Assembly: GCA_030068145.1 (NCBI GenBank)
Contig: JAPJBO010000803.1
Span: forward strand, 1 to 64,000
Source: Diplonema papillatum
Lineage: Eukaryota; Euglenozoa; Diplonemea; Diplonemida; Diplonemidae
Length of the DNA stretch: 64,000 nt
Reading direction: 5' to 3'
This document shows positions 24,981-60,361 of this stretch, one piece after another. The notes below the pieces were generated by a model that did no database searches, was not told the origin of the DNA, and saw only the letters and a list, made by a program, of their open reading frames with translations. Position 1 is the stretch's first letter; every line of letters begins with the position of its first letter. Position numbers and translations under genes: made by a program.

Positions 24981-25061
24981 CCGAAGAAGCCTGTCGCGAC
25001 GCCTCAGGAGAAGGCGCGGAACTTCCTCGTCGCCACCTACACGAAGCACCGGCCTGACAAG
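24981..25061 (+). CDS. Exon A of the repeat/PH gene
   Basis: The exon follows acceptor CTCTGCAG and precedes donor AAG/GTGTGA. It encodes 27 residues, PKKPVATPQEKARNFLVATY then TKHRPDK, the helix that opens repeat unit 1. It is GC-rich compared with the surrounding repeats. It lies 130 bases after a mobile-element insertion and 120 bases before the start of the satellite that fills intron 1. Confidence 0.65.
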
Positions 25062-28000
25062 GTGTGATCTTTTCTTTCAGTGCCGCTCTTCGTACTGCAT
25101 GCAACCCTCCCTTTCGGCATGCGTTTTTAGTGTTAACAATGCATTGTTGGTACTAAGTACGTGCGCTCGGCTAAAGGCCGGCGCGGGGCGAGACTGGAGG
25201 CAGCTGTTAAAGCTCGGAAACAGTAAAGTTCGGGCGCAGCTAAGTTCGGGCGATGCTAAGTTTGGGTGATGCAAATTTCTGGTGAACCAAAGTTCGGGCG
25301 AAGCAAAGTTCGGGCGCGCAGCTGAGTTCGGGCGAAGCACAGTTCGGGCGAAGCTAAGTTCCAGTGAACCAAAGTTCGGGCGCAGCTGAGTTCGGGCGAA
25401 GCAAAGTTCGGGCGAAGCTAAGTTCCAACGATTCAAAGTTCGGGCGCGGGCGAAGCTAAGTTCTGGTGAAGGAAAGCAAAGTTCGGGCGAAGCACAGTTC
25501 GGGCGAAGCTAAGTTCTGGTGAAGGAAAGCAAAGTTCGGGCGAAGCACAGTTCGGGCGAAGCTAAGTTCCAGTGAACCAAAGTTCGGGCGCAGCTGAGTT
25601 CGGGCGAAGCAAAGTTCGGGCGAAGCTAAGTTCCAACGATTCAAAGTTCGGGCGCGGGCGAAGCTAAGTTCTGGTGAAGGAAAGCAAAGTTCGGGCGAAG
25701 CAAAGTTCGGGCACAGCTGAGTTCGGGCGAAGCTAAGTTCCAGTGAACCAAAGTTCGGGCGCGGGCGAAGCTAAGTTCTGGTGAAGGAAAGCAAAGTTCG
25801 GGCGAAGCAAAGTTCGGGCACAGCTGAGTTCGGGCGAAGCTAAGTTCCAGTGAACCAAAGTTCGGGCGAAGCTAAGTTCCAGTGAACCAAAGTTCGGGCG
25901 AAGCTAAGTTCCAGTGAACCAAAGTTCGGGCGCAGCTGAGTTCGGGCGAAGCAAAGTTCGGGCGAAGCTAAGTTCCAACGATTCAAAGTTCGGGCGCGGG
26001 CGAAGCTAAGTTCTGGTGAAGGAAAGCAAAGTTAGGGCGAAGCAAAGTTCGGGCAAAGCAAAGTTCGGGCACAGCTGAGTTCGGGCGAAGCTAAGTTCCA
26101 GTGAACCAAAGTTCGGGCGAAGCTAAGTTCCAGTGAACCAAAGTTCGGGCGAAGCTAAGTTCCAGTGAACCAAAGTTCGGGCGCAGCTGAGTTCGGGCGA
26201 AGCAAAGTTCGGGCGAAGCTATGTTCCAACGATTCAAAGTTCGGGCGCGGGCGAAGCTAAGTTCTGGTGAAGGAAAGCAAAGTTAGGGCGAAGCAAAGTT
26301 CGGGCGAAGCAAAGTTCGGGCACAGCTGAGTTCGGGCGAAGCTAAGTTCCAGTGAACCAAAGTTCGGGCGAAGCTAAGTTCCAGTGAACCAAAGTTCGGG
26401 CGAAGCTAAGTTCCAGTGAACCAAAGTTCGGGCGAAGCTAAGTTCCAGTGAACCAAAGTTCGGGCGCAGCTGAGTTCGGGCGAAGCAAAGTTCGGGCGAA
26501 GCTATGTTCCAACGATTCAAAGTTCGGGCGCGGGCGAAGCTAAGTTCTGGTGAAGGAAAGCAAAGTTAGGGCGAAGCAAAGTTCGGGCGAAGCAAAGTTC
26601 GGGCACAGCTGAGTTCGGGCGAAGCTAAGTTCCAGTGAACCAAAGTTCGGGCGAAGCTAAGTTCCAGTGAACCAAAGTTCGGGCGCAGCTGAGTTCGGGC
26701 GAAGCACAGTTCGGGCGAAGCTAAGTTCCAGTGAACCAAAGTTCGGGCGCAGCTGAGTTCGGGCGAAGCAAAGTTCGGGCGAAGCTAAGTTCCAATGATT
26801 CAAAGTTCGGGCGCGGGCGAAGCTAAGTTCTGGTGAAGGAAAGCAAAGTTCGGGCACAGCTGAGTTCGGGCGAAGCTAAGTTCCAGTGAACCAAAGTTCG
26901 GGCGAAGCTAAGTTCCAGTGAACCAAAGTTCGGGCGAAGCTAAGTTCCAGTGAACCAAAGTTCGGGCGAAGCAAAGTTCGGGCACAGCTGAGTTCGGGCG
27001 AAGCTAAGTTCCAGTGAACCAAAGTTCGGGCGAAGCTAAGTTCCAGTGAACCAAAGTTCGGGCGCAGCTGAGTTCGGGCGAAGCACAGTTCGGGCGAAGC
27101 TAAGTTCCAGTGAACCAAAGTTCGGGCGCAGCTGAGTTCGGGCGAAGCAAAGTTCGGGCGAAGCTAAGTTCCAATGATTCAAAGTTCGGGCGCGGGCGAA
27201 GCTAAGTTCTGGTGAAGGAAAGCAAAGTTCGGGCACAGCTGAGTTCGGGCGAAGCTAAGTTCCAGTGAACCAAAGTTCGGGCGCAGCTGAGTTCGGGCGA
27301 AGCAAAGTTCGGGCGAAGCTAAGTTCCAACGATTCAAAGTTCGGGCGCGGGCGAAGCTAAGTTCTGGTGAAGGAAAGCAAAGTTCGGGCGAAGCACAGTT
27401 CGGGCGAAGCTAAGTTCCAGTGAACCAAAGTTCGGGCGAAGCTAAGTTCCAGTGAACCAAAGTTCGGGCGAAGCTAAGTTCCAGTGAACCAAAGTTCGGG
27501 CGAAGCTAAGTTCCAGTGAACCAAAGTTCGGGCGAAGCTAAGTTCCAGTGAACCAAAGTTCGGGCGAAGCAAAGTTCGGGCACAGCTGAGTTCGGGCGAA
27601 GCTAAGTTCCAGTGAACCAAAGTTCGGGCGAAGCTAAGTTCCAGTGAACCAAAGTTCGGGCGAAGCTAAGTTCCAGTGAACCAAAGTTCGGGCGAAGCAA
27701 AGTTCGGGCACAGCTGAGTTCGGGCGAAGCTAAGTTCCAGTGAACCAAAGTTCGGGCGAAGCTAAGTTCCAGTGAACCAAAGTTCGGGCGCAGCTGAGTT
27801 CGGGCGAAGCACAGTTCGGGCGAAGCTAAGTTCCAGTGAACCAAAGTTCGGGCGCAGCTGAGTTCGGGCGAAGCACAGTTCGGGCGAAGCTAAGTTCCAG
27901 TGAACCAAAGTTCGGGCGCAGCTGAGTTCGGGCGAAGCAAAGTTCGGGCGAAGCTAAGTTCCAATGATTCAAAGTTCGGGCGCGGGCGAAGCTAAGTTCT

Positions 28001-31000
28001 GGTGAAGGAAAGCAAAGTTCGGGCACAGCTGAGTTCGGGCGAAGCTAAGTTCCAGTGAACCAAAGTTCGGGCGCAGCTGAGTTCGGGCGAAGCAAAGTTC
28101 GGGCGAAGCTAAGTTCCAACGATTCAAAGTTCGGGCGCGGGCGAAGCTAAGTTCTGGTGAAGGAAAGCAAAGTTCGGGCGAAGCAAAGTTCGGGCGAAGC
28201 TAAGTTCTGGTGAAGGAAAGCAAAGTTCGGGCGAAGCACAGTTCGGGCGAAGCTAAGTTCTGGTGAAGGAAAGCAAAGTTCGGGCGAAGCACAGTTCGGG
28301 CGAAGCTAAGTTCCAGTGAACCAAAGTTCGGGCGCAGCTGAGTTCGGGCGAAGCAAAGTTCGGGCGAAGCTAAGTTCCAACGATTCAAAGTTCGGGCGCG
28401 GGCGAAGCTAAGTTCTGGTGAAGGAAAGCAAAGTTCGGGCGAAGCAAAGTTCGGGCACAGCTGAGTTCGGGCGAAGCTAAGTTCCAGTGAACCAAAGTTC
28501 GGGCGCGGGCGAAGCTAAGTTCTGGTGAAGGAAAGCAAAGTTCGGGCGAAGCAAAGTTCGGGCACAGCTGAGTTCGGGCGAAGCTAAGTTCCAGTGAACC
28601 AAAGTTCGGGCGAAGCTAAGTTCCAGTGAACCAAAGTTCGGGCGAAGCTAAGTTCCAGTGAACCAAAGTTCGGGCGCAGCTGAGTTCGGGCGAAGCAAAG
28701 TTCGGGCGAAGCTAAGTTCCAACGATTCAAAGTTCGGGCGCGGGCGAAGCTAAGTTCTGGTGAAGGAAAGCAAAGTTAGGGCGAAGCAAAGTTCGGGCAA
28801 AGCAAAGTTCGGGCACAGCTGAGTTCGGGCGAAGCTAAGTTCCAGTGAACCAAAGTTCGGGCGAAGCTAAGTTCCAGTGAACCAAAGTTCGGGCGAAGCT
28901 AAGTTCCAGTGAACCAAAGTTCGGGCGCAGCTGAGTTCGGGCGAAGCAAAGTTCGGGCGAAGCTATGTTCCAACGATTCAAAGTTCGGGCGCGGGCGAAG
29001 CTAAGTTCTGGTGAAGGAAAGCAAAGTTAGGGCGAAGCAAAGTTCGGGCGAAGCAAAGTTCGGGCACAGCTGAGTTCGGGCGAAGCTAAGTTCCAGTGAA
29101 CCAAAGTTCGGGCGAAGCTAAGTTCCAGTGAACCAAAGTTCGGGCGAAGCTAAGTTCCAGTGAACCAAAGTTCGGGCGAAGCTAAGTTCCAGTGAACCAA
29201 AGTTCGGGCGCAGCTGAGTTCGGGCGAAGCAAAGTTCGGGCGAAGCTATGTTCCAACGATTCAAAGTTCGGGCGCGGGCGAAGCTAAGTTCTGGTGAAGG
29301 AAAGCAAAGTTAGGGCGAAGCAAAGTTCGGGCGAAGCAAAGTTCGGGCACAGCTGAGTTCGGGCGAAGCTAAGTTCCAGTGAACCAAAGTTCGGGCGAAG
29401 CTAAGTTCCAGTGAACCAAAGTTCGGGCGCAGCTGAGTTCGGGCGAAGCACAGTTCGGGCGAAGCTAAGTTCCAGTGAACCAAAGTTCGGGCGCAGCTGA
29501 GTTCGGGCGAAGCACAGTTCGGGCGAAGCTAAGTTCCAGTGAACCAAAGTTCGGGCGCAGCTGAGTTCGGGCGAAGCAAAGTTCGGGCGAAGCTAAGTTC
29601 CAATGATTCAAAGTTCGGGCGCGGGCGAAGCTAAGTTCTGGTGAAGGAAAGCAAAGTTCGGGCACAGCTGAGTTCGGGCGAAGCTAAGTTCCAGTGAACC
29701 AAAGTTCGGGCGAAGCTAAGTTCCAGTGAACCAAAGTTCGGGCGAAGCTAAGTTCCAGTGAACCAAAGTTCGGGCGAAGCAAAGTTCGGGCACAGCTGAG
29801 TTCGGGCGAAGCTAAGTTCCAGTGAACCAAAGTTCGGGCGAAGCTAAGTTCCAGTGAACCAAAGTTCGGGCGCAGCTGAGTTCGGGCGAAGCACAGTTCG
29901 GGCGAAGCTAAGTTCCAGTGAACCAAAGTTCGGGCGCAGCTGAGTTCGGGCGAAGCACAGTTCGGGCGAAGCTAAGTTCCAGTGAACCAAAGTTCGGGCG
30001 CAGCTGAGTTCGGGCGAAGCAAAGTTCGGGCGAAGCTAAGTTCCAATGATTCAAAGTTCGGGCGCGGGCGAAGCTAAGTTCTGGTGAAGGAAAGCAAAGT
30101 TCGGGCACAGCTGAGTTCGGGCGAAGCTAAGTTCCAGTGAACCAAAGTTCGGGCGCAGCTGAGTTCGGGCGAAGCAAAGTTCGGGCGAAGCTAAGTTCCA
30201 ACGATTCAAAGTTCGGGCGCGGGCGAAGCTAAGTTCTGGTGAAGGAAAGCAAAGTTCGGGCGAAGCACAGTTCGGGCGAAGCTAAGTTCCAGTGAACCAA
30301 AGTTCGGGCGAAGCTAAGTTCCAGTGAACCAAAGTTCGGGCGAAGCTAAGTTCCAGTGAACCAAAGTTCGGGCGAAGCTAAGTTCCAGTGAACCAAAGTT
30401 CGGGCGAAGCTAAGTTCCAGTGAACCAAAGTTCGGGCGAAGCAAAGTTCGGGCACAGCTGAGTTCGGGCGAAGCTAAGTTCCAGTGAACCAAAGTTCGGG
30501 CGAAGCTAAGTTCCAGTGAACCAAAGTTCGGGCGAAGCTAAGTTCCAGTGAACCAAAGTTCGGGCGAAGCAAAGTTCGGGCACAGCTGAGTTCGGGCGAA
30601 GCTAAGTTCCAGTGAACCAAAGTTCGGGCGAAGCTAAGTTCCAGTGAACCAAAGTTCGGGCGCAGCTGAGTTCGGGCGAAGCACAGTTCGGGCGAAGCTA
30701 AGTTCCAGTGAACCAAAGTTCGGGCGCAGCTGAGTTCGGGCGAAGCACAGTTCGGGCGAAGCTAAGTTCCAGTGAACCAAAGTTCGGGCGCAGCTGAGTT
30801 CGGGCGAAGCAAAGTTCGGGCGAAGCTAAGTTCCAATGATTCAAAGTTCGGGCGCGGGCGAAGCTAAGTTCTGGTGAAGGAAAGCAAAGTTCGGGCACAG
30901 CTGAGTTCGGGCGAAGCTAAGTTCCAGTGAACCAAAGTTCGGGCGCAGCTGAGTTCGGGCGAAGCAAAGTTCGGGCGAAGCTAAGTTCCAACGATTCAAA

Positions 31001-34000
31001 GTTCGGGCGCGGGCGAAGCTAAGTTCTGGTGAAGGAAAGCAAAGTTCGGGCGAAGCACAGTTCGGGCGAAGCTAAGTTCTGGTGAAGGAAGCAAAGTTCG
31101 GGCGAAGCACAGTTCGGGCGAAGCTAAGTTCTGGTGAAGGAAAGCAAAGTTCGGGCGAAGCACAGTTCGGGCGAAGCTAAGTTCCAGTGAACCAAAGTTC
31201 GGGCGCAGCTGAGTTCGGGCGAAGCAAAGTTCGGGCGAAGCTAAGTTCCAACGATTCAAAGTTCGGGCGCGGGCGAAGCTAAGTTCTGGTGAAGGAAAGC
31301 AAAGTTCGGGCGAAGCAAAGTTCGGGCACAGCTGAGTTCGGGCGAAGCTAAGTTCCAGTGAACCAAAGTTCGGGCGAAGCTAAGTTCTGGTGAAGGAAAG
31401 CAAAGTTCGGGCGAAGCAAAGTTCGGGCACAGCTGAGTTCGGGCGAAGCTAAGTTCCAGTGAACCAAAGTTCGGGCGAAGCTAAGTTCCAGTGAACCAAA
31501 GTTCGGGCGAAGCTAAGTTCCAGTGAACCAAAGTTCGGGCGCAGCTGAGTTCGGGCGAAGCAAAGTTCGGGCGAAGCTAAGTTCCAACGATTCAAAGTTC
31601 GGGCGCGGGCGAAGCTAAGTTCTGGTGAAGGAAAGCAAAGTTAGGGCGAAGCAAAGTTCGGGCAAAGCAAAGTTCGGGCACAGCTGAGTTCGGGCGAAGC
31701 TAAGTTCCAGTGAACCAAAGTTCGGGCGAAGCTAAGTTCCAGTGAACCAAAGTTCGGGCGAAGCTAAGTTCCAGTGAACCAAAGTTCGGGCGCAGCTGAG
31801 TTCGGGCGAAGCAAAGTTCGGGCGAAGCTATGTTCCAACGATTCAAAGTTCGGGCGCGGGCGAAGCTAAGTTCTGGTGAAGGAAAGCAAAGTTAGGGCGA
31901 AGCAAAGTTCGGGCGAAGCAAAGTTCGGGCACAGCTGAGTTCGGGCGAAGCTAAGTTCCAGTGAACCAAAGTTCGGGCGAAGCTAAGTTCCAGTGAACCA
32001 AAGTTCGGGCGAAGCTAAGTTCCAGTGAACCAAAGTTCGGGCGAAGCTAAGTTCCAGTGAACCAAAGTTCGGGCGCAGCTGAGTTCGGGCGAAGCAAAGT
32101 TCGGGCGAAGCTATGTTCCAACGATTCAAAGTTCGGGCGCGGGCGAAGCTAAGTTCTGGTGAAGGAAAGCAAAGTTAGGGCGAAGCAAAGTTCGGGCGAA
32201 GCAAAGTTCGGGCACAGCTGAGTTCGGGCGAAGCTAAGTTCCAGTGAACCAAAGTTCGGGCGAAGCTAAGTTCCAGTGAACCAAAGTTCGGGCGAAGCTA
32301 AGTTCCAGTGAACCAAAGTTCGGGCGAAGCAAAGTTCGGGCACAGCTGAGTTCGGGCGAAGCTAAGTTCCAGTGAACCAAAGTTCGGGCGAAGCTAAGTT
32401 CCAGTGAACCAAAGTTCGGGCGAAGCTAAGTTCCAGTGAACCAAAGTTCGGGCGAAGCAAAGTTCGGGCACAGCTGAGTTCGGGCGAAGCTAAGTTCCAG
32501 TGAACCAAAGTTCGGGCGAAGCTAAGTTCCAGTGAACCAAAGTTCGGGCGAAGCAAAGTTCGGGCACAGCTGAGTTCGGGCGAAGCTAAGTTCCAGTGAA
32601 CCAAAGTTCGGGCGAAGCTAAGTTCCAGTGAACCAAAGTTCGGGCGAAGCAAAGTTCGGGCACAGCTGAGTTCGGGCGAAGCTAAGTTCCAGTGAACCAA
32701 AGTTCGGGCGAAGCTAAGTTCCAGTGAACCAAAGTTCGGGCGCAGCTGAGTTCGGGCGAAGCAAAGTTCGGGCGAAGCTATGTTCCAACGATTCAAAGTT
32801 CGGGCGCGGGCGAAGCTAAGTTCTGGTGAAGGAAAGCAAAGTTAGGGCGAAGCAAAGTTCGGGCGAAGCAAAGTTCGGGCACAGCTGAGTTCGGGCGAAG
32901 CTAAGTTCCAGTGAACCAAAGTTCGGGCGAAGCTAAGTTCCAGTGAACCAAAGTTCGGGCGAAGCTAAGTTCCAGTGAACCAAAGTTCGGGCGAAGCAAA
33001 GTTCGGGCACAGCTGAGTTCGGGCGAAGCTAAGTTCCAGTGAACCAAAGTTCGGGCGAAGCTAAGTTCCAGTGAACCAAAGTTCGGGCGAAGCTAAGTTC
33101 CAGTGAACCAAAGTTCGGGCGAAGCAAAGTTCGGGCACAGCTGAGTTCGGGCGAAGCTAAGTTCCAGTGAACCAAAGTTCGGGCGAAGCTAAGTTCCAGT
33201 GAACCAAAGTTCGGGCGAAGCAAAGTTCGGGCACAGCTGAGTTCGGGCGAAGCTAAGTTCCAGTGAACCAAAGTTCGGGCGAAGCTAAGTTCCAGTGAAC
33301 CAAAGTTCGGGCGAAGCAAAGTTCGGGCACAGCTGAGTTCGGGCGAAGCTAAGTTCCAGTGAACCAAAGTTCGGGCGAAGCTAAGTTCCAGTGAACCAAA
33401 GTTCGGGCGCGGGCGAAGCTAAGTTCTGGTGAAGCAAAGCAAAGTTAGGGCGAAGCAAAGTTCGGGTTTTGGTGATGCTGAATTCGGCGTGTGGTAGCAA
33501 GTTTAGCCTGTGTTGGCAAGTTCGGCGCCAGTACCCGGGGGGAGACTCCCCCCACTCCGTTTCCCGTGGTGACCCAAATACTGCGAGATACTGAGAAACT
33601 CCGCAAAAAACGCAAATTTCGGGCACATTAGACCCCGAAACGCAACAAACCTCGAAAACAATCGACCGGAAAAGTGTCATGGGCGGGGTCCGAACCCGGG
33701 CCTACCGGCCTGAAGGCCGACGCCGGCTCACTCTGCCACCCCTCTGCACTTTGGCAGTGGGGCAGGGGGCACACCTGGTATAGCGGTCAGGGCGCCAGAT
33801 TGATAACCTGAGGGTCGCTGGTTCGATTCCCTGGCTGGCCAACTTCTCCAGGCGTTTGGGGATGAACTCCCAGATGAAAGCTCTAGTTCACACAGTACTT
33901 GTACTGCCAGCGGAAATTGCTCCGCAGTATAGGATGGCTTCCTTACTTGATTGTAAGGTCTCCCAACCATCCCCATCAGGGGACCTCAGAGGAGTGGAGT

Positions 34001-40000: not shown

Positions 40001-43000
40001 TGCGCGGTGCTTCGTTAACTGCCGCGAGAGGACCTTGAAGTTCCGTTCTACCGCAGCCTCGGTTGTTGTGCAGTTGGCAAGTGCAATGGCAAAGGAACTC
40101 AACACGGGGAAGTCAAGGCGGCGTGTGTGGGTGCTCCAGTATTTGAGGAACGAGCCTGCGCAAGCAGGAACAACCCCGTGGTTCCAGAACGTTGTAAGTT
40201 CGGTGGTTACCTGGCTCTCGCGATCTTTGAAGGTCCCAAGGGACTTCTTCTTCCGGTCGGCATAGGGAACAACGTGCTTGAGCACTTCATCCAAAGAATT
40301 TCTGTGGTGTCGCCGGGACCAATCCCCGTGGTTTTCCTTTGGGTTCAGGGTGCTGAAAAGAGAGGTGGCAGCAGATGTGAAGTGACGCTCCTTCCTGGTC
40401 TCCCAGATTTCCGAAGCTTCCTTCGCTCGAAGGTTTCCTTTTCGCATCTTTGCAGCATGCTGGTCCAGGAAGGCGAGCACCCCAAGAAGTCCCTCCAAAG
40501 TCATTCGGTCCGATTGGACAACATCTGTGGCAATGGCAAATGGGGCACAGATGTCGATCAACTGGTTAAGGTCGGACCAGTATCGTTCCCAGTTGGTGCC
40601 GTCTCCCGACACAGTTTCGATGTGGGCACTGAGCTCTTTCTGGCGAAGCATGGCATCGTACATACTGTTCCATCTCACAGTGGTGAAGCAACGAAGTCCT
40701 TTGATCTGAGTGTTAGGAACCTGAGCTTCTGCCTGGGCTGCCTTCAGTTGTTCTGCCCCCTCCTTGTGCACGTACTTTTCGTTTTCGACAAGGAATCTTT
40801 TCTTGAACGCTGAGAAGCGGTCGATGTCGAAGATGTCCTTGAGGACAAGCTGGAGGCTGTGGGCCCCACACCGAAAGACGAGGAGCCCACGATAAGCAAG
40901 GTGCTCTCTTGTCGCATTCAGCGCATCCTCGGCAGGCATCCCGTCTGCGTCTTGCTCTGCTTCCGACTCGTCCGATTCACTTTCGTCCCCCAGCTGGTCC
41001 AGTGCGCTCTGCATCGCCGCTGCGTTGTCCGCCACAGCACCAACAACGGTGATCCCCCCTTCGGTGAGTGTATCCAGAATCTTGTCCAGGCATCCAGCGA
41101 TAGCTGCAGCAGTCATTGAACACTTCACCTCTATATCACCGTAGTGATACACTGTGTTTCCACAGGCGAGGGACACACCAAGAAATGTTCTGCGGCATTT
41201 CGTTGCCGCATCCACGAGGAGGCAGACATCTTCCCCGGCAAGTGAGGCGAAGAGCTCTGTCATGAGCTTCTCTGCAAGCAGCGCTGTCTTCTGGCTGAGT
41301 TCGCGTCTCGTCATGATGACATCTGCCTTGAGCAGAGAACGAAAGTCCGGCGACTCAATGATGTGGAACGGGAGGTGGTGCTTGGCAAACGTGAAGACAA
41401 CATGCTCATCCAGTGGCAACCCCCGCACTGTTGGCGAAACAGCAATGCGACGCTGCTTCGCGGTGCTCGCCTTCTCGTTTGCTGCTGCTTCCGCTTTTCT
41501 CTTTCTCTCTTCAGCCCTCTCCCGGATGCCTCGCTTTGCTGCCTCAATCGCCTCGTGGTTGTGGTACGTATCGTAGTGGCGTTTTGGTGTTCCCTTCTCG
41601 TTGCGCATCTTTGGCATGTGTGTGCACCCTTCCAAACGACACATGGCTAGCCCGTCTTCGAGAACCTGAAAGTAGACATGGAAGTCCCATGTCTTGCTTG
41701 ATGCACTAGTGTAACGCGGATCGTCTGGTCGTGCAAGTCCGTCTTGTGTGAGGTTCCCGAGCACTGTGCCTGCAGGAAACCCCTTTGGACCAAAGTTTGG
41801 TGCTGGATCTGCGGCAGGTGAAGGCTGGTCGGCAGGGATGTTTTCAGCAGTGATGGGTTGCTCAGCAACTTGCTGTGCCAAAGGTTCTGAAGTTGCACCA
41901 CCGCTGGCCTGTGTTGTGCCGCTGTTTGTGGCCTGGGGCGCATCAGCCTGCTGTGCACCACTGCTCGAGGGCTGAAGGAGCTTCTTCAACACCCAGCTGT
42001 TGCCACACTTCGAGCACAGGTCGAAGTCACAGGCCTTGCATCCGATACGTTGGCGCCGATTGCGGGTGCCGTTTTTGTACCCACAAACGTCGCATTCGAA
42101 GCCTCCGACATCTTTCGCCGCCCTCTTGTAGCTAACATCCAGCATCTCCATTCTTGTCTTGCAGTTAATGCAGCAGCATTGTGCGCTTGCCATTTTGCTT
42201 GGTGTTACAACCTGGTGTATGAGTGGGGTAAGGCATATCATACATAATAATCGATTATAGTCAGTGGCCCACACCTCGTTCAGGACCTGGCTCAAGCAGG
42301 ACGTGGCTCAAACACACGATACGTCATCGAAAAACGTGGGATAAACATGTCTTTGTCCTGGAAATGCTGTTTTCTGGACCATCTTCACTGCACCACAATG
42401 AAAAAGATTCTAGCCACAATAGCCACAATACTTTGTGGGTAAATGTTGTGGCTATTCTGCCCACATTGTGGGAAAGTTGTGGGTGCACAGTGCTGCGTGC
42501 GAGGACGATACTCCCCGATGACGTTGTGCTCGATGGTGTGCAGGAACGCGTCTAATGGGACGCGTCGCCCATCTCCACTAAGTTGAATCGTGCCGCGGGT
42601 TTGCAACAGCAACCATCGAAAACAAAATCAACTACATGAACTGTACCCGTGTGGTCAACAGCAAGATTAGCAGCTTTCTGGCTTCACCTTTTACTCCAAC
42701 CATACGGAGCAGGTGCACAAAGCTTCACTTCTTGTATTTTTCCAATTTTTTTTTTGTCTTTTTTGGTTCACGTTGTTAATCTTAGCGAGGCCCAATCTAT
42801 CTTCTATGTTCATAGTGTTGTAGCAGTCCATTCTGAATTTTATCAGCAGCGAAATTTGGTCTATCGCCGTCATCGCCGTCTATCGCCGTCATCGCCGCGT
42901 GCGGGTCCTTCTCCACGCATGCCCACGTTTCCGCCGTCGCGTGCTTGCGTGCCACGGTGAGGACGAGTACCGCCGTGGCCGCGCCGGGCTTCTGTCCGCC

Positions 43001-46000
43001 TTCAGTCGCCGCCTGCCGGACCTTCCCGTGATGCCGTCACTTAGACCGCCTAGGTCTCTCGCTACCTTTTGTTGGGATGAGTAGACCTTCACTCCTGGTG
43101 GACTGAGGACTTTGTACCCACCCGGCGCTACGCCTAAATCGTACTCGCTGGGGTCGGCCGAGGAAACCCAGAAAAGCCGAGCCAACCCTGTTAGTGGGCC
43201 TCTAACTTGAGGAACTCAGTTAGACACGCTTTTTCACGTTTTTTCGTCGTCTTCTTGCGTTAGTGATAGTTCACACTTTTCAAGTTTTCTCAGTCATACA
43301 CAGACGTTCATACCGGGTTGTGTGACAGTTTTCTACGATGTGCTGCATGGCTTTGCTCCATAATCGTCCCCTTTTACGGATGGGACCGCCAAGGCGTGGG
43401 CACTTGATTGACCGATAAATGGCCGAAAAAAACGAAAATGGGAAACGGTGGCGCCTCTTGAGCTCGGGAACTTGTTTGTCACCCCCGCTTCCTTTTGCAG
43501 TCTTCCGGTTTATCGGGATCGTGCTTTGCACCAATCTCAAGCAACCGATTATCGCCGTCTTCCTCTTTTTTATCTCACAGGCTAGGAAGAGCAGAGATGG
43601 CTGCGTCGATGACGTGTCCAAAGTTATCTTCTGCCCACTCTCTGTCCGCCTTACTCAAAGGGGTCGAGTCGCGATGCAGCACAACCTTGGCCCTCAGGAA
43701 CTCGTCTGTCACGTTGCGATGCCCAACTTCGTGCAGAACTTCTTTGATCGTCGCACAAACGCCCTGCGAAATCCCGTAGTTGAAATTGTGGGGCAGTTCT
43801 TTCACTTTGGGAACGTCTGTGTAAACGTCAATTTCCTTCATCCTTCCGCGTAGACCCATTTCTTTGTACGCTGCTTCATCTGTCAAGCGTGAAAGATCTT
43901 TCGTTTGTCGTTGTTCACGGCGCCTCTGCACCGCACCCGTTCGGCGCCAGCAACCGTGACCGCTGCTTGCGTAGCGTCGGCTTTTTTGGTGCCGGGTAAA
44001 ACGACCGGTATGAGGTTGGGATTCCACTTCGGGGATTGTACAGCACCCACCCAAGGGTTCTGCACGTCCCACACCTTGTTCAGGCAAGCCAGGAAGAGTG
44101 CTTCCTGAGCAGCCGTGACAGGCGCCGCCGAGGCGCGTGTTCTGTCCTCTTCCTTGAGCAAAGCAGGAACGCTTTGTATGTCGAGCTCGGGGAGTTCTTT
44201 CGCTCTCGGAGTGCGGACCCACTGCGAGAAAGTCGTCAGCGACGTGGTTTTCCCTGGCACGGCATGTGCCGGAATTTTGAAGGTGGGCACTAAATAAAGA
44301 TTGCCAAGGACACGCATAACAAGTGCCAAGCTACTCCACCACGAATCACGTCAGGCGACGTCTACAAAAATTACCTGTAAGTAAACGACACCCTGAAGGC
44401 AGCAGCGGTAGAAGCGAAGGCGAAACAAGAACAGCGGAACTACGGAAGCAGCAAATCCATTGCCACACAGCGAGTACATGGAAACAAGATCCGCATGTCG
44501 GGTACCAAAGCGAAAGATAGTAACACCGAAATAGAGCCGAAGAAGTCGAGCGGGTCGCCATGTCGGCTACAATGGCGGAGGGCCAAGATGGGACTTTGTT
44601 GTAATCGTGCGCTGGTGTCGCTGCGCGCTACGAAGCAAATGAGGTTTGCTGCCGGCATGTCTGGGGTGTCGTGCGGTCGGACAACGCGATACTGGATGGT
44701 CTTCGATGCCAGGTGAACGCCTGCGGTTCTTTGGTGGAGGCGGTCGAGCATCGACGATGACGCCGCCGAAAGCGCTGCCATCGCCGTGTTGTGTTCCCCC
44801 CGCTCCCTTGGCAGTCTCCCCCACACCTCCTAACGCCTGGTCCCCCGGAGTACTCTGCCTTCTCCATTGGACCCATGAGCGGGGCCACCCCTGATCAGGG
44901 ATCCAACTTTTCCACCCGACATGACCTACTAGTCGGGTGGGTCTGAGGTGAGTTGGGAACTCCTTGATCTTCCAGACGGTCGGTTGTCTCGCGGATTTCG
45001 GCGGCCCTGCTTCATCCTCCGATCTCTCAGCGTTGACATTCAGGGCACTGGGCAGACGTCACATTCCACTCGCCACCGCTGTGATGAAGCGAAATGAGAA
45101 CTCAAAAATGTTAACAAAATTTGACGTGTACATCAGTACTAATCACCACTTCACGATTTTGGCGAACATGCTTCTTCCTTGGGCCGGTCTTGGGTCCGGT
45201 GCAGGCTGACACCGGGTTTTTTGCTCGGTCAGACAAAGTGCTAAAGTCCTCTGACACGTACCCTACGCTGAAAATGTTTGTCGACAACGAAAAGCAAAAA
45301 AAAAAGTAAACCAAAACTACGCATTCTTTTCCGGATCCTCAAACGGACTCGTCGCGCCAAAACTTCTTTCACAATCTGCAGGTGCCCCGCGTCGACGAGA
45401 TGCTTGAGAGGTTCAAGGGGAAGGAGGAGGACCTCCTCGCGGAAGTGATGAAGAAGCACACCGACAGCAGCGAGATTCTCTCCGCCGTCGAGACGGCCCC
45501 GATGCACGACGAGCCGAACACGACCCTCCCCGTCCACTTGCAGGTATCGTCTTCCTTCCAACCACTACTTCCGGACGATCTACCACTGTAGTGGTCATGC
45601 CTCTCATCTCACCTTTAAAACACTGAGAGATTCATATTGGCCGACTACTAAGTAAGCGAACTTGCACTCTAATAACACACACTCACCGCGTACTTGTCAC
45701 ACGCGTGACAAGGACATTTGACGAGTACATGTACTTGTCATGAGTTTAATTCGCACACCAGAGCGGCGTCTACGGCCCCGACGGCAACCGCACCGAAGGA
45801 GAATCAAATGGTAGCTAACTCAAAGAAGGTTCGCGGGCGAGAGGCCCGAAGAATGGTCGAAAGTGGTCGCCGTTTGCTTCACCGGAAAGATCTGACACGC
45901 ATCTTTGAAATGCATCCTTCATCGGGCAGAATTTTTGCTCCGGGCTCTCAACGGACCATGAAGTTTGCCATGGAGCCCCCCCTTTTCCCAAATTAGCTCA

Positions 46001-49000
46001 CCCTCCACAAGCAATGTACCTATCATGACAAGTAAGGCACTTGTCATATACGAAGCGAACTTTAACTCAATAATATACGGAAAGTTCTGCGCACTTAACC
46101 ATGGTTAAGAAGACGACTGAAAGCACAGACACAAAGATAGCTCAAAGCGTTTGCAAAATAACACGAAAAGCCTCTAGGCAAAAACCCGTTTTCACATTCC
46201 TTCTGATCACATACGTTTGGCTGCGAAACGTGACAAACAGCCCCCCACGCATGCCACATTCATTGCGAATGTGTTCGTGGTGTCGGTCGCAGGAGTCTCT
46301 GTTGGCTAGCCGACGAGCGTAAAAGAGTGAAAGAGCACGTACAGTAGTGAGTAGAGAAGAGAACGAGTGTACAATAATGGAGGTAGCACAGACTACCAGA
46401 CCAGCGGAGGCCACCGCAAAACGATTTTGTCCCTTTATCCCTCAAAACCAGCACCAATGACAACGCCTCGTTGGAAGCGCTGCCTCTGAAGGACGCAGAG
46501 GTGGCCGACCACGCCGACATAGATGACGCGTTCTAGCTGCAGGCGACGCCTGGAGCTAGTAATACTTAGAAGATTCATATTAGCCACTTGTCATATTATG
46601 ATAAGTACTCTGACAAGCAATGTACTTGTCATATGAAAAGTAAGGCACTTGTCATATGATGTCATGACAAGGACAAGTAATACCCGGGAAGTTCCTTCTG
46701 ATCACATATGTTTGGCTGAAGAAAACATGACATCAATGACTTGGTACAGAAAACAATACTCCAAAGCCAGAAAAAGACAAGCCACCGCCAAAGCATTTCT
46801 TTCCCTCAAAACCAGCACCGACAACGACCCCACGCAGGACAAGCGGCTGTTCTATTCGGGGTACCTCTGGCAGCAGGTGAACGGGTGGCTGACGACGCGG
46901 CAGAAGCGCTGGTGCATGCTCATCGGGCAGCACTTCTACGTGGGGGAGGAGCCGATCGACGCCTCGTTCGAAGCGCTGCCTCTGAAGGACGCAGAGGTGG
47001 CCGACCACGCCGACATAGATGACGCGTTCTAGCTGCAGGCGACGCCTGGAGCTAGTAATACTTAGAAGATTCATATTAGCCACTTGTCATATTATGATAA
47101 GTACTCTGACAAGCAATGTACTTGTCATATGAAAAGTAAGGCACTTGTCATATGATGTCATGACAAGGACAAGTAATACCCGGGAAGTTCCTTCTGATCA
47201 CATATGTTTGGCTGAAGAAAACATGACATCAATGACTTGGTACAGAAAACAATACTCCAAAGCCAGAAAAAGACAAGCCACCGCCAAAGCATTTCTTTCC
47301 CTCAAAACCAGCACCGACAACGACCCCACGCAGGACAAGCGGCTGTTCTATTCGGGGTACCTCTGGCAGCAGGTGAACGGGTGGCTGACGACGCGGCAGA
47401 AGCGCTGGTGCATGCTCATCGGGCAGCACTTCTACGTGGGGGAGGAGCCGATCGACGCCTCGTTCGAAGCGCTGCCTCTGAAGGACGCAGAGGTGGCCGA
47501 CCACGCCGACATGGATGACGCGTTCTAGCTGCAGGCGACGCCTGGAGCTAGTAATACTTAGAAGATTCATATTAGCCACTTGTCATATTATGACAAGTAC
47601 TCTGACAAACAATGTACTTGTCATATGACAAGTAAGGCACTTGCCACATGACAAGTAAGGCACGTGTCATATGAAAAGTAAGGCACTTGTCATATGATGT
47701 CATGACAAGGGACAAGTACTACCCGGGAAGTTCCTTCTGATCACATATGTTTGGCTGAAGAAAACATGACATCAATGACTTGGTACAGAAAACAATGCTC
47801 CGAAGCTAGAAAAAGACAACGATACCAACGACCCCACGCAGGACAAGCGGCTGTTCTATTCGGGGTACCTCTGGCAGCAGGTGAACGGGTGGCTGACGAC
47901 GCGGCAGAAGCGGTGGTGCATGCTCATCGGGCAGCACTTCTACGTGGGGGAGGAGCCGATCGACGCCTCGTTCGAAGCGCTGCCTCTGAAGGACGCAGAG
48001 GTGGCCGACCACGCCGACATAGATGACGCGTTCTAGCTGCAGGCGACGCCTGGAGCTAGTAATACTTAGAAGATTCATATTAGCCACTTGTCATATTATG
48101 ATAAGTACTCTGACAAGCAATGTACTTGTCATATGAAAAGTAAGGCACTTGTCATATGATGTCATGACAAGGACAAGTAATACCCGGGAAGTTCCTTCTG
48201 ATCACATATGTTTGGCTGAAGAAAACATGACATCAATGACTTGGTACAGAAAACAATACTCCAAAGCCAGAAAAAGACAAGCCACCGCCAAAGCATTTCT
48301 TTCCCTCAAAACCAGCACCGACAACGACCCCACGCAGGACAAGCGGCTGTTCTATTCGGGGTACCTCTGGCAGCAGGTGAACGGGTGGCTGACGACGCGG
48401 CAGAAGCGCTGGTGCATGCTCATCGGGCAGCACTTCTACGTGGGGGAGGAGCCGATCGACGCCTCGTTCGAAGCGCTGCCTCTGAAGGACGCAGAGGTGG
48501 CCGACCACGCCGACATAGATGACGCGTTCTAGCTGCAGGCGACGCCTGGAGCTAGTAATACTTAGAAGATTCATATTAGCCACTTGTCATATTATGATAA
48601 GTACTCTGACAAGCAATGTACTTGTCATATGAAAAGTAAGGCACTTGTCATATGATGTCATGACAAGGACAAGTATTACCCGGGAAGTTCCTTCTGATCA
48701 CATATGTTTGGCTGAAGACATGACATCAATGACTTGGTACAGAAAACAATACTCCAAAGCCAGAAAAAGACAAGCCACCGCCAAAGCATTTCTTTCCCTC
48801 AAAACCAGCACCGACAACGACCCCACGCAGGACAAGCGGCTGTTCTATTCGGGGTACCTCTGGCAGCAGGTGAACGGGTGGCTGACGACGCGGCAGAAGC
48901 GCTGGTGCATGCTCATCGGGCAGCACTTCTACGTGGGGGAGGAGCCGATCGACGCCTCGTTCGAAGCGCTGCCTCTGAAGGACGCAGAGGTGGCCGACCA

Positions 49001-50641
49001 CGCCGACATAGATGACGCGTTCTAGCTGCAGGCGACGCCTGGAGCTAGTAATACTTAGAAGATTCATATTAGCCACTTGTCATATTATGATAAGTACTCT
49101 GACAAGCAATGTACTTGTCATATGAAAAGTAAGGCACTTGTCATATGATGTCATGACAAGGACAAGTAATACCCGGGAAGTTCCTTCTGATCACATATGT
49201 TTGGCTGAAGAAAACATGACATCAATGACTTGGTACAGAAAACAATACTCCAAAGCCAGAAAAAGACAAGCCACCGCCAAAGCATTTCTTTCCCTCAAAA
49301 CCAGCACCGACAACGACCCCACACAGGACAAGCGGCTGTTCTATTCGGGGTACCTCTGGCAGCAGGTGAACGGGTGGCTGACGACGCGGCAGAAGCGCTG
49401 GTGCATGCTCATCGGGCAGCACTTCTACGTGGGGGAGGAGCCGATCGACGCCTCGTTCGAAGCGCTGCCTCTGAAGGACGCAGAGGTGGCCGACCACGCC
49501 GACATGGATGACGCGTTCTAGCTGCAGGCGACGCCTGGAGCTAGTAATACTTAGAAGATTCATATTAGCCACTTGTCATATTATGACAAGTACTCTGACA
49601 AACAATGTACTTGTCATATGACAAGTAAGGCACTTGCCACATGACAAGTAAGGCACGTGTCATATGAAAAGTAAGGCACTTGTCATATGATGTCATGACA
49701 AGGGACAAGTACTACCCGGGAAGTTCCTTCTGATCACATATGTTTGGCTGAAGAAAACATGACATCAATGACTTGGTACAGAAAACAATGCTCCGAAGCT
49801 AGAAAAAGACAACGATACCAACGACCCCACGCAGGACAAGCGGCTGTTCTATTCGGGGTACCTCTGGCAGCAGGTGAACGGGTGGCTGACGACGCGGCAG
49901 AAGCGGTGGTGCATGCTCATCGGGCAGCACTTCTACGTGGGGGAGGAGCCGATCGACGCCTCGTTCGAAGCGCTGCCTCTGAAGGACGCAGAGGTGGCCG
50001 ACCACGCCGACATAGATGAAGCGTTCGCTTTTTGCTTGAAGCACCCGACGGCGGGGAGCCTCGTGTTTTACACCGACAACGAGGTTGACAAGTTGGTCTG
50101 GTGTGTCAAGCTGGAGGTGGCGACGCTGCAGGCGACGCCAGAGAGGGCGGCTGACGAACAGTCACGGGCGCTGTATCAGAAGGTGTTTTCTGAGTATCCG
50201 GCGAGGCTGTGCGTGCCGTACCACAAGGAGGCGGCGACCGTGGTGCCGGAAAAGCTCACGCAGCCTGTCCTGACGGGATACGTGGTGTGCTCGACAGGAG
50301 ACTCGTGGCTGGGGGAAAACTGGGCTCGGAGATACGTCACCCTGCACGACTGCTTCCTGACCCTCCGCGACGACAAAGCCTCCGCTGCTGGCGTCCGCAT
50401 CTTCCCCCTGCGCGACGGCGAGCTCGAAGAGCTACCCGCCGATGGGAACTCGTCCGACGCGACGTTCGCGTTCTACTCCGACTTCGTGCCGCAGCTGGCC
50501 ATCCGCCCGGACACGCCGGACCAGTACAAGCAGTGGTTCACCGCCTTCTCCGAAGCCTTCCAGCAGTCGAACCCGGAGCGCACGGCCGCCGAAGCGAGCG
50601 AGAAGAAGGAGCCCGAGAAGAAGCAGCAGACCTTGATCTGA
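24981..50641 (+). CDS. Multi-exon repeat/PH-domain gene with giant introns (5' end not found)
   Basis: Four exons join in phase 0: 24981-25061, 35208-35363, 45382-45543, 49835-50641. All introns are GT-AG, of 10,146, 10,018 and 4,291 bp. The joined product is at least 401 residues. First come two copies of a protist repeat: a helix (RNFLVATYTKHRPDK; RRQLIEHYQTHNPIK), then V..(I/V)D..L..(Y/F)KG(R/K)E(D/E)(E/D)L. Both copies are split by an intron after the same Lys. Two PH-like domains follow. PH domains bind phosphoinositides or proteins; the repeat's role is unknown to me. The phase match and the repeat alignment make the joins convincing, but exon skipping or missed small exons cannot be excluded. 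The first exon lies upstream of 24981 and I could not identify it. Confidence 0.7.
25190..33465 (-). repeat. Hierarchical satellite with a 16-bp building block (8.3 kb)
   Basis: The basic words are AAGTTCGGGCGAAGCT and AAGTTCCAGTGAACCA, with variants CGCAGCTG, ACAGCTG, CAACGATTC and TCTGGTGAAGGAAAGC. They assemble into units of about 380-440 bp and 790 bp. These in turn sit in super-repeats of roughly 2.75-2.87 kb; the rare word GGGCAAAGCAAAG marks three of them near 26048, 28797 and 31665. Because the word length and frames allow it, the minus strand is open for long stretches encoding NLASPELxFARTxLRPNFGS repeats. I treat these as a by-product of the repeat. Confidence 0.95.
33670..33745 (-). 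tRNA. tRNA-like sequence (degenerate), minus strand
   Basis: On the minus strand, TGGCAGAGTGAGC resembles an A box and GGGTTCGGACCCC a B box with a nearly complete T stem. CGGCCTTCAGGCCG forms an anticodon-arm hairpin, but not with a standard 7-base loop. The acceptor stem does not pair. This could be a tRNA pseudogene or the head of a tRNA-derived SINE; a CAG (Leu) anticodon is possible but unsure. Confidence 0.35.
33768..33841 (+). tRNA. tRNA-like sequence (degenerate, Ile-GAU-like)
   Basis: TAGCGGTCAGGGC resembles an A box and GGTTCGATTCC is a perfect B box 30 bases on. The loop TTGATAA would give anticodon GAU. The anticodon stem has mismatches at both ends, and neither the T stem nor the acceptor stem pairs well, so this is probably a pseudo-tRNA or SINE head. 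Confidence 0.4.
34347..34630 (+). repeat. Composite dispersed repeat copy
   Basis: Bases 34347-34432 match 912-1000, 34433-34530 match 1815-1928, and 34535-34628 match the 165-bp repeat. The same pieces, found apart at the left end of the window, are adjacent here, so they may be parts of one longer element. Confidence 0.7.
34637..35150 (+). repeat. Tandem repeat of about 134 bp, four copies
   Basis: Units start CTGCCGACCGTAGACACAAA and contain AAATTTCGAAACAGC and GACGCACTAACAAGCACCAG. The starts are near 34637, 34771, 34911 and 35046. The array ends about 55 bases before the acceptor of exon B. Confidence 0.9.
35208..35363 (+). CDS. Exon B of the repeat/PH gene
   Basis: Acceptor CCCCGCAG, donor AAA/GTATGC, 52 codons in phase 0. 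It encodes VKDIDTILTVYKGREDELIT, the second part of repeat unit 1, and then the helix of unit 2 ending in IEHYQTHNPIK. Its 3' half, with the donor, is copied several times in the following 370 bases. Confidence 0.7.
35457..35735 (+). pseudogene. Partial duplications of exon B 3' end and donor site
   Basis: CCGACGCCAGCTCATCGAGC recurs at about 35460, 35562 and 35700, the first copy also with CAACCCGATCAAAGTACGC (the exon end plus a donor-like GTACGC). Each copy follows GTTTTGG and, in two cases, a GTCGCAGATCTTA/GATCGCAGATCTG word that also occurs near 52345 and 54900. These are fragments without their own acceptor context. Confidence 0.75.
35738..36415 (+). repeat. Tandem repeat of about 140 bp, five copies
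   Basis: Units contain GAGAATGCGCTGGATGGGCC, CCCGGATCTTCCGTTCCACC and TTGTATTGCTCACTCGAGAC. They are open in several frames because unit lengths keep frame, but I see no domain in any of them. Confidence 0.9.
36418..36640 (+). repeat. GC-rich minisatellite
   Basis: Short imperfect units of GGTGCTATCGGCRCGGNGGC type repeat about 12 times. No gene is evident. Confidence 0.75.
36641..37511. other. Spacer without recognisable gene
   Basis: Bases 37455-37511 match the dispersed repeat at 290-345. The rest shows no recognisable gene; short frames on both strands have no domain I can name. Confidence 0.4.
37512..37735 (+). rRNA. Second degenerate 18S rRNA fragment
   Basis: Conserved words in order: ACAGCATTAAACGAGTTT, TGCGTCGTGATGAGGATC, TTGCAATTATT, GAATGAGGAATGCCTAGTAG, GCGCAAGTCATCAGCTTGCA, TGATTACGTCCCTGCC and TTTGTACACACCGCCCGTCG followed by TTGCTCCCGATTGG. 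It is a 3' piece of 18S lying downstream, in gene order, of the region seen at 11180. The terminal helix and the usual 3' end are not recognisable, so it is a fragment. Confidence 0.88.
38273..38995 (-). CDS. Unassigned open frame of 240 aa
   Basis: I do not recognise this protein. The middle is rich in Pro, Ser, Thr and Ala; a more balanced stretch (REAAKIEAIAAGREQLDARP) follows. The reading frame starts inside a segment (38930-39030) that is repeated at 42541-42630 beyond the hAT element, which argues that at least its N terminus is repeat-derived. It could be a fortuitous frame in GC-rich DNA. Confidence 0.2.
   Translation of the reverse strand: MLLQTRSKIWATRPVRRVLLRTGAFIDLPRRAQRRAGAHPVPEAEAPGQQSNNAASVRRTALDLTSPPTPNSKLTAHQPSSPSPKTSSTGNIIPTQSTLPRQPASEKTRLPGGAEATPAGVLEEARIPDREAAKIEAIAAGREQLDARPTKGMSDVIPVIDPETAGTARKVRAAKASVNKGGLHFPTLTVTASEKKMKIPLLSISQPLRPLRNARLRDPASVGLSTFGVCFSFQVIVVSV
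39139..42494 (-). mobile_element. Complete hAT-superfamily DNA transposon
   Basis: The ends are long inverted repeats of about 135 bp. The outer 95 bases (CAGCACTGTGCACCCACAAC at 39139, mirrored at 42475-42494) look identical, and similarity continues to the word GGTCCAGAAAACAGC. GCGTGCGA flanks both sides (39131-39138 and 42495-42502), the 8-bp target duplication expected for hAT elements; one terminal G can be assigned to either the element or the duplication. The transposase frame is intact, so this copy may be recent. Confidence 0.92.
39722..42295 (-). CDS. hAT transposase with ZZ-like and BED-like zinc fingers (857 aa; ATG at 42193 likely)
   Basis: The frame is 857 codons from the first possible start; Met35 (42191-42193, MASAQCC) is the likelier start. 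A ZZ-type zinc finger is suggested by CDVC...CKACDFDLCSKC (68-97), and a BED-like finger by CRLEGC...HYDTYHNH (219-247). The RNase H-like core follows with LLVDAATK (Asp362), AVADNAAAM (Asp423) and the C-terminal block FPVLSSFAIALANC...EAAVERNF (Glu750), the hAT dimerisation and catalytic Glu region. An acidic run (437-450) lies in the insertion domain. It cuts and pastes the element bounded by the inverted repeats. The ZZ finger is an unusual addition as far as I know. Confidence 0.92.
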   Translation of the reverse strand: MSQVLNEVWATDYNRLLCMICLTPLIHQVVTPSKMASAQCCCINCKTRMEMLDVSYKRAAKDVGGFECDVCGYKNGTRNRRQRIGCKACDFDLCSKCGNSWVLKKLLQPSSSGAQQADAPQATNSGTTQASGGATSEPLAQQVAEQPITAENIPADQPSPAADPAPNFGPKGFPAGTVLGNLTQDGLARPDDPRYTSASSKTWDFHVYFQVLEDGLAMCRLEGCTHMPKMRNEKGTPKRHYDTYHNHEAIEAAKRGIRERAEERKRKAEAAANEKASTAKQRRIAVSPTVRGLPLDEHVVFTFAKHHLPFHIIESPDFRSLLKADVIMTRRELSQKTALLAEKLMTELFASLAGEDVCLLVDAATKCRRTFLGVSLACGNTVYHYGDIEVKCSMTAAAIAGCLDKILDTLTEGGITVVGAVADNAAAMQSALDQLGDESESDESEAEQDADGMPAEDALNATREHLAYRGLLVFRCGAHSLQLVLKDIFDIDRFSAFKKRFLVENEKYVHKEGAEQLKAAQAEAQVPNTQIKGLRCFTTVRWNSMYDAMLRQKELSAHIETVSGDGTNWERYWSDLNQLIDICAPFAIATDVVQSDRMTLEGLLGVLAFLDQHAAKMRKGNLRAKEASEIWETRKERHFTSAATSLFSTLNPKENHGDWSRRHHRNSLDEVLKHVVPYADRKKKSLGTFKDRESQVTTELTTFWNHGVVPACAGSFLKYWSTHTRRLDFPVLSSFAIALANCTTTEAAVERNFKVLSRQLTKHRASLKSQKASSLAIIAINYPKLAADHFAPESEKKAATEKRMFTRLAMRLSEEQKSCIAPWFSLSPQGTNASPPQSQTSSSNDVSPPNNVARALY
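42503..43574. other. Spacer right of the hAT element
   Basis: Bases 42541-42630 repeat 38940-39030 directly. A short ATCGCCGTC minisatellite lies at 42862-42897. I recognise no gene in 42640-43570. Confidence 0.4.
43575..44329 (-). pseudogene. Frameshifted open reading frame pair of unknown family
   Basis: On the minus strand, a 148-aa frame from 44329 to 43883 (MALVMRVLGNLYLVPTFKIP...) runs out at IFHA-stop. A second frame overlaps its end and continues to 43575 with protein-like sequence (DLSRLTDEAAYKEMGL, ELPHNFNYGISQGV, EVLHEVGHRNVTDEFLRAKV). A single frame change near 43905-43935 would connect them. I do not recognise either half. It may be a broken transposon gene, or a real gene with a programmed shift or small intron. 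Confidence 0.4.
45382..45543 (+). CDS. Exon C of the repeat/PH gene
   Basis: Acceptor ATCTGCAG, donor CAG/GTATCG, 54 codons in phase 0. It encodes VPRVDEMLERFKGKEEDLLA, the second half of repeat unit 2, then a linker (ILSAVETAPMHDEPNTTLPV) leading to the PH region. It begins at the same point of the repeat as exon B, after the Lys of PIK. Confidence 0.7.
45685..46065. repeat. Palindromic ACTTGTCA/TGACAAGT cluster
   Basis: ACTTGTCACACGCGTGACAAG, GTACATGTACTTGTCATGA, TATCATGACAAGTAAGGCAC and related words occur here and in every unit of the array at 46561-49720. There the perfect 18-base palindrome ACTTGTCATATGACAAGT is seen (near 47618 and 49611). Confidence 0.8.
46561..49834 (+). pseudogene. 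Tandem array of PH-exon duplications
   Basis: Unit starts (AATACTTAGAAGATTCATAT) are at 46561, 47057, 47553, 48061, 48557, 49050 and 49546, periods 496, 496, 508, 496, 493 and 496. Each of the first six carries the acceptor CCACGCAG (CCACACAG once) and the exon D start DKRLFYSGYLWQQ through DAEVADHAD(I/M)DDAF. Each then hits TAG, because an internal deletion joins the exon to GCTGCAGGCGACGCC, a later part of exon D. Units 2-3 match units 6-7 in their variants, so a block was duplicated. The last unit runs into the intact exon D. Confidence 0.85.
49835..50641 (+). CDS. Exon D of the repeat/PH gene: two PH-like domains and stop
   Basis: Starts after acceptor CCACGCAG and encodes 268 residues before TGA. 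The first PH-like domain begins LFYSGYLWQQVNGWLTTRQK with RWCMLIGQHFYV and closes near TDNEVDKLVWCVKLEVATLQ. The second begins VLTGYVVCSTGDSWLGENWA with RRYVTLHDCFLTLRDD and closes with DTPDQYKQWFTAFSEAF, the PH C-terminal helix carrying the expected Trp. A charged Lys/Glu tail ends the protein. In the intact copy the exon reads DIDEAFAFCLKHP where array copies stop. An A-rich 3' flank follows. Confidence 0.8.
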   Translation, partial: DKRLFYSGYLWQQVNGWLTTRQKRWCMLIGQHFYVGEEPIDASFEALPLKDAEVADHADIDEAFAFCLKHPTAGSLVFYTDNEVDKLVWCVKLEVATLQATPERAADEQSRALYQKVFSEYPARLCVPYHKEAATVVPEKLTQPVLTGYVVCSTGDSWLGENWARRYVTLHDCFLTLRDDKASAAGVRIFPLRDGELEELPADGNSSDATFAFYSDFVPQLAIRPDTPDQYKQWFTAFSEAFQQSNPERTAAEASEKKEPEKKQQTLI

Positions 50642-50910
50642 AAAAAAAGACAAAAAAAAACAAAAACAAAACGAAAGACACCGATATGCGATTGTCGGAA
50701 ACTCACACACACAATCCGGTTGATGATCCCAACAGAAAACGTCGAAAGGCACCAGACTGTGCATCAACAACCCCGGTTGGCTGTCGGCAACACAAAGACG
50801 TGACGAGGAACGGATTGATGGCAGCACAAAAGGAAGGACGGCAAAAGTCGAAAGCCCCCTCTCAGACTGCACACGTCACAGCCTAGGTTGTTCGTCGGCG
50901 CAAAAAGGAC

Positions 50911-51200
50911 CCCTGCGCGACTGCTTCCTGACCCTCCGCGACAACAAAGCAGTCCGCTGCTGGCGTCCGCATCTTCCCCCTGCGCGACGGCGAGCTCGAA
51001 GAGCAACCCGCCGATGCGACGTTCGTGTTCTTCTCCGACTTCGTGCCGCAGCTGGCCATCCGCCCGGACACGCCGGACCAGTACAAGCAGTGGTTCACCG
51101 CCTTCTCCGAAGCCTTCCAGCAGTCGAACTCGGAGCGCACGGCCGCCGAAGCGAGCGAGAAGAAGGAGCCCGAGAAGAAGCAGCAGACCTTGATCTGAAA
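50911..51200 (+). pseudogene. Decayed copy of the 3' end of exon D
   Basis: This matches 50340-50642 (GACTGCTTCCTGACCCTCCG to ACCTTGATCTGAAA). It has one extra base after CAACAAAGCAG that shifts the frame and an in-frame 15-base deletion after GCCGATG. It begins mid-domain, with no start or acceptor of its own. Confidence 0.9.

Positions 51201-59816: not shown

Positions 59817-60361
<545 letters not shown>

Follow-up and report, generated by a model that had tools for sequence, protein, structure and literature searches.

A putative gene of Diplonema papillatum with repeat-filled introns and decoy copies of the start of its last exon

Four short GC-rich segments of a Diplonema papillatum contig, scattered over 25.7 kb of satellite and transposon DNA, raise the question of whether they are exons of a single gene and, if so, how its introns came to be filled. 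The window analyzed here is the whole 64,000-nucleotide stretch at positions 1 to 64,000 of contig JAPJBO010000803.1 (assembly GCA_030068145.1), in which the candidate gene occupies 24981-50641. With a probability of about 70%, we consider it a working or recently working gene of at least four exons. Its introns would have grown by gain of a dispersed satellite, by a young hAT insertion, and by local tandem duplications that reached into exon edges, and decoy copies of its last exon would mostly be skipped.

Four exons and their predicted protein

The proposed gene is organized as follows:

24981-25061, plus strand: exon 1, 81 nt, helix half of repeat A, ending in ...RPDK
25062-35207, plus strand: intron 1, 10,146 bp, about 86% tandem repeats
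35208-35363, plus strand: exon 2, 156 nt, core half of repeat A, then the helix half of repeat B, ending in ...NPIK
35364-45381, plus strand: intron 2, 10,018 bp
45382-45543, plus strand: exon 3, 162 nt, core half of repeat B, then a linker
45544-49834, plus strand: intron 3, 4,291 bp, about 79% array
49835-50641, plus strand: exon 4, the last exon, 807 nt, two PH stretches and a TGA stop

All four exons are preceded by AG and the first three are followed by GT. All joins are in phase 0, and the joined frame encodes 401 residues. A preliminary description of this DNA had proposed the same four exons with GT-AG edges, and all of its coordinates hold; its two introns of about 10 kb each measure 10,146 and 10,018 bp. 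The exons are GC-rich as it had said, with a GC content at the third codon position of 0.87-0.94, like that of two conserved genes in the window (RPL18, 0.84; glutaredoxin, 0.86). A coding-signature scan of both strands was carried out with 14 stretches (coding or exon copies) excluded by hand. The thresholds that all four exons meet are reached by none of 91,484 scan positions at a length of 156 nt and by none of 91,316 at 162 nt. At 81 nt, 28 of 93,584 pass, at three spots, one of which is a copied RPL18 piece; exon 1 is therefore the weakest exon on this measure. A six-frame search of the window places the core motif of the repeat in exons 2 and 3 and nowhere else.

The 5' end of the four-exon gene is incomplete. 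The frame of exon 1 contains no Met back to the stop at 24864, and neither a coding-like start nor an upstream exon was found when 16.6-25.0 kb were scanned. Since exon 1 lacks a start codon, it is not the first exon, and the gene extends beyond what had been described.

The preliminary description had also proposed a protein search of the joined residues, and this search identifies exon 4 as two PH stretches. Exon 4 alone scores 43.9 bits against the PH domain (PF00169), for which the curated cut-off is 25.1 (E 1.5e-10), and its nearest PDB sequences are PH domains (E 0.1). A tandem-PH paralogue on contig C29 is 31% identical and carries an intron inside PH1. The part upstream of exon 4 contains two copies of a repeat consisting of a helix half, ..FY..(Y/H)NP.K, followed by V..(I/V)D..L..(Y/F)KG(R/K)E, hereafter the KGRE-type repeat. 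No Pfam member matches a 16-row alignment of this repeat below E 0.02, the joined 401 residues have no match in NCBIfam, no solved structure provides a fold for the repeat, and our literature search found no match to the motif. GIPC1 appeared as a distant relative with a first profile (E 0.13) and was gone with a larger one. The top structure matches of the repeat, a cytochrome trimer and a phosphodiesterase, cover just 14-18 residues and were taken as chance. Elsewhere in the genome, a single open frame of 2519 residues contains more than 20 KGRE-type repeats in a row (G000:C246:125520-129632). The protein would thus consist of two helix-plus-KGRE-type repeats and two PH domains, and judged from these domains it probably acts as an adaptor that its PH part anchors to membranes.

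Do exons 1-3 and exon 4 belong together? The gaps between them are repeats of up to 10 kb and arrays are hard to assemble, so one could argue that exons 1-3 and exon 4 come from different genes or were brought together by misassembly. We consider this very unlikely, as all exons share strand and phase and the scan, outside the stretches excluded by hand, found nothing else coding-like at lengths of 156-162 nt. Furthermore, on contig C412 a PH frame (127159-124940) lies 56 bases downstream of a KGRE-repeat open frame (128168-127215), both being on one strand. These two are seen as separate open frames, and their domain order, which is that of our locus, backs exons 1-3 and exon 4 as parts of one protein. 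The units of the array in intron 3 carry different variants, which argues against a simple collapse or copy error of the assembly. The reading as one gene with repeat-filled introns, already put forward in the preliminary description, is therefore supported by the coding signature, the phase, the order of two repeats and two PH domains, and the order at C412. The splice-site edges, phase and coding signature suggest that the exons are spliced into one mRNA.

What fills the introns

Two tandem repeats were identified in intron 1:

25225-33460: satellite of 16-bp units (AAAGTTCGGGCGAAGC), of a family dispersed over the genome
34635-35151: 136-bp tandem repeat upstream of exon 2

The first of these bears out the 8-kb satellite that had been noted in intron 1. 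A 28-base word of it has 949 exact matches in the genome, compared with 0 for a reversed control, and no match in viral contigs. Two further tandem repeats lie in the window: a 51-bp satellite at 18923-23030 (80 copies at 98%), whose minus strand is open as one frame of 1322 residues, and a CA repeat of 272 units at 59817-60359.

Intron 2 contains a transposon and several smaller features:

35457-35732, plus strand: three partial, decaying copies of the end of exon 2 including its donor region, downstream of that exon
37489-37678, plus strand: small-subunit rRNA fragment
39139-42494: complete hAT element with terminal inverted repeats and an 8-bp target duplication (GCGTGCGA), the right end being ambiguous by one base
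39722-42307, minus strand: hAT transposase frame, 861 residues

A whole hAT element had been recognized in intron 2 before, and its ends and target duplication are now located. With a C-terminal hAT dimerisation domain, inverted repeats and the 8-bp duplication it is a typical hAT transposon, to be noted only for its youth and its many identical copies. For the transposase, 25 genome copies share the same full score, the one in intron 2 included, and 35 full-length stop-free copies were found among 56 matches (53 of 191 candidates scored). Because so many copies are identical in full score, the insertion in intron 2 is regarded as young, and the family is probably active or was so until recently. 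The three copies of the exon 2 edge are all decaying: the first (35457-35558) is 89% identical and its donor now reads GTACGC, the second (35558-35702) is 73% identical and has lost its donor, and the third (35698-35732) is 35 bp long. A plasmid search with the small-subunit rRNA fragment gave no match; a second such fragment lies at 11269-11398, close to an RPL18 piece described below.

Further exon-derived features are an array in intron 3 and one partial copy behind the gene:

46463-50026, plus strand: seven-unit array with a spacing of 493-508 bp, each unit comprising the 3' end of the intron, the acceptor and the first 192 nt of exon 4
46838-47029, plus strand: decoy 1 of the exon 4 start, followed by a TAG stop
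47334-47525, plus strand: decoy 2, copy of the exon 4 start
47842-48033, plus strand: decoy 3, whose upstream sequence matches that of the real acceptor over 292 bp at 99.7%
48338-48529, plus strand: decoy 4, copy of the exon 4 start
48831-49022, plus strand: decoy 5, copy of the exon 4 start
49327-49518, plus strand: decoy 6, copy of the exon 4 start
50911-51219, plus strand: incomplete copy, at 91%, of the tail of exon 4 (50340-50663)

The copies of exon edges inside the introns are new here and had been missed in the preliminary description. Unit 7 of the array is the real start of exon 4, and a part unit of 71 bp lies at 46463-46533. About 300 bp of intron 3 before the acceptor belong to the copied unit. 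Over the 192 positions each of the six decoys shows 1-3 differences from exon 4, among them GAC in place of GAA at position 186 of the copy and, in five of the six, C in place of G at position 72. The AG is kept in 6/6, the copied exon part is free of stops, and an identical in-frame TAG follows directly after codon 64 in 6/6. In the whole genome exon 4 has nine matches, all on the present contig (C803), and the array is found nowhere else. A block of 1,571 bp (46463-48033) matches 48459-50026 at 99.6%; the array has therefore grown stepwise, and the real start of exon 4 was part of this growth. We propose that the 3' end of intron 3 and the first 192 nt of exon 4 were amplified to seven units, probably by unequal exchange or slippage, and that the last unit alone leads on to the complete exon. 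The remaining six would then be decoy last exons, past all of which the cell must splice to make the full protein.

The decoys precede the real exon 4 in the order of transcription and lie nearer to the donor of intron 3. In five of the six, the upstream pyrimidine stretch is better than at the real acceptor. Splicing to a decoy is predicted to yield a product of 197 residues ending inside the first PH domain (three of the six decoys were joined). We expect the decoys to be mostly skipped, since they have no following donor and lack the gene's real 3' end, and since short exons between long introns would be recognized as units by exon definition. The donor-like motif GT[AG]TG[CT] occurs nowhere in intron 3, decoys included. 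It fits six of eight compared donors and misses two of the gene's own three (GTGTGA and GTATCG), so its absence from the decoys is weak evidence for skipping.

Could the array instead have a use? The acceptors of all six decoys are intact, their in-frame stops are identical, the copied exon parts contain no stop, and the decoys lie closer to the donor than the real acceptor does; all this would suit a poison last-exon array. Splicing to a decoy would give a short repeat-only protein or lead to mRNA decay, and the number of units would set the share of full-length product. However, with just 1-3 differences per 192 positions, the intactness of the copies reflects youth and not selection, and the partial copies found beside other genes look broken and scattered; we thus regard this explanation as distinctly unlikely. 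It is more doubtful still that a fast-changing satellite copy number sets the balance between the full-length PH protein and the short repeat-only protein, and that satellites derived from exon edges recurrently tune or break genes. If the decoys are used, the gene may also be decaying. The position of the decoys before the real exon, with equal or better upstream sequence, would fit a dying gene whose array leads to a mostly truncated product on the way to a pseudogene. This is difficult to reconcile with an exon 4 that is open for 268 codons and keeps a sharp GC bias at the third codon position, and we consider such decay improbable. A working or recently working gene that mostly skips its decoys remains our preferred reading.

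Partial copies beside genes are not confined to this locus. Among 19 paralogous loci, partial copies (at least 50 nt) of the repeat-bearing frame lie near five, namely L050, L053, L054, L055 and L057, those at L057 being partly inverted; L046, with 42 nt in inverted orientation, was left out of this count. Two Ras genes and RPL18 also have partial copies beside them, and as the two Ras loci were chosen for a second match already visible beside each, they imply no general rate. Most likely, exon edges are swept into local tandem duplications as a by-product of the frequency of such duplication. Seven to eight tandem Ras-like matches at a spacing of about 1.3 kb were observed at G000:C1847:26-9309. 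The RPL18 copies of the window are:

11602-11694: 93-bp piece of a third RPL18
12047-12616: intronless RPL18 copy, 98% identical in DNA to the next
16003-16572: intronless RPL18 copy, 98% identical in DNA to the former

An RPL18 copy at C13 is in three pieces, as if it had introns, and the intronless copies of the window may be retrocopies.

The intron position within the KGRE-type repeat

The preliminary description had placed every intron after the same Lys and took this to suggest that the repeat spread as exon units. The first statement is correct for introns 1 and 2 (K27/V28 and K79/V80); intron 3 follows a Gln (Q133/D134). The second is not supported genome-wide. We searched the genome with the consensus repeat (E <= 1; 150 of 184 candidates scored, the DNA at each match not being individually inspected). 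The Lys/Val point is crossed without a stop in 147/150 matches and with a stop in one (C391); in the remaining two (C1509, C116) the match begins no earlier than this point. Expansion by exon units would leave most copies bounded by introns at one place in one phase, and the 147 unbroken copies are contrary to this. Many matches sit in open frames of 300-2500 residues with several repeats in a row.

Such a search favours unbroken copies and missed the two repeats of the window themselves, and it was therefore rerun with the half behind the junction. This gave 65 matches, in which C28, C527 and C118 were new besides the two of the window. In these three the break, in phase 0, lies further on, before E-Y/F-x-G and not at the Lys. 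The break at C1509, AAG/GTATGT...CAAACAG/GTA, is in the same place and phase as in the repeats of the window, and that at C116 lies one base earlier. Most of the breaks have AAG or AAA in front of them and G behind; at C118 the break comes after CGG. This AAR/G-like context resembles the proto-splice pattern as reviewed in PMC3443670.

Did exons between phase-0 introns after the same Lys duplicate and shuffle as units? The shared residue and phase of introns 1 and 2, and the identical split at C1509, would suggest so, and a tree test does not reject the two repeats of the window as sisters (AU p 0.599). Nevertheless, repeats A and B of the window are 27% identical to each other, whereas A is 44-47% identical to intron-less copies (46% to C288). 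Holding the four Lys-split repeats together costs 21.8 log-likelihood units (p 0.087, which is not a rejection), three paralogues are split at another place, and nearly all genomic copies are unbroken by a stop at Lys/Val. The tree is poorly resolved, with 10 of 48 inner branches starred and repeat B of the window on a long branch. It comprises 51 repeats, with six from C246, seven rows joined across introns by hand, and rows scoring below 20 or covering fewer than 38 profile positions left out. Taken together, shuffling of exon units is unlikely, and a unit of this kind may have been duplicated once inside the present gene. Parallel intron gain at AAR/G, or loss of an old intron in most copies, fits the data at least as well. 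In our preferred reading, the Lys/Val site is one of a few AAR/G places at which a minority of repeat copies hold introns. The family matches this single genome 150 times and has introns at two positions in a few members, which makes it a good set for weighing shuffling against repeated gain at AAR/G.

Comparison with known systems

Satellite-filled large introns are known from the Drosophila Y genes kl-3 and kl-5, as described in PMC6508621. According to this account they resemble the present gene in their small exons between introns filled with satellites and transposons, and differ from it in having introns of megabases, compared with about 10 kb here. Since repeat-filled introns are already known, the gene itself is mostly ordinary for a repeat-rich eukaryote.

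Introns can also be gained by tandem genomic duplication across a splice-site-like AGGT within an exon, as outlined in PMC3443670. A tandem duplication over splice-site-like sequence is common to that process and to ours; the difference is that here an existing intron, intron 3, would have grown by copying its own acceptor and part of the exon. Gain by duplication leaves the same exonic segment at both ends of the intron, whereas the copies in intron 3 lie at the acceptor side only. Introns 1 and 2 show no match between their exon edges and no sign of an origin from duplicated exon. Our literature search for arrays of decoys or exon fragments returned nothing like the exon 4 array, which is no proof of its absence from print.

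Poison exons and duplicated alternative exons are reportedly treated in a paper on U2AF1. Like the decoys, such exons are exon copies with a premature stop, and they differ from the six tandem copies here, which are truncated copies of a last exon, have no donor of their own and are of putative use. The less usual feature of this locus is an intron whose terminal part is a satellite built from the start of the following exon together with its acceptor. Such an array offers a natural test of how the spliceosome chooses among seven nearly identical acceptors and of the way in which introns expand from the edges.
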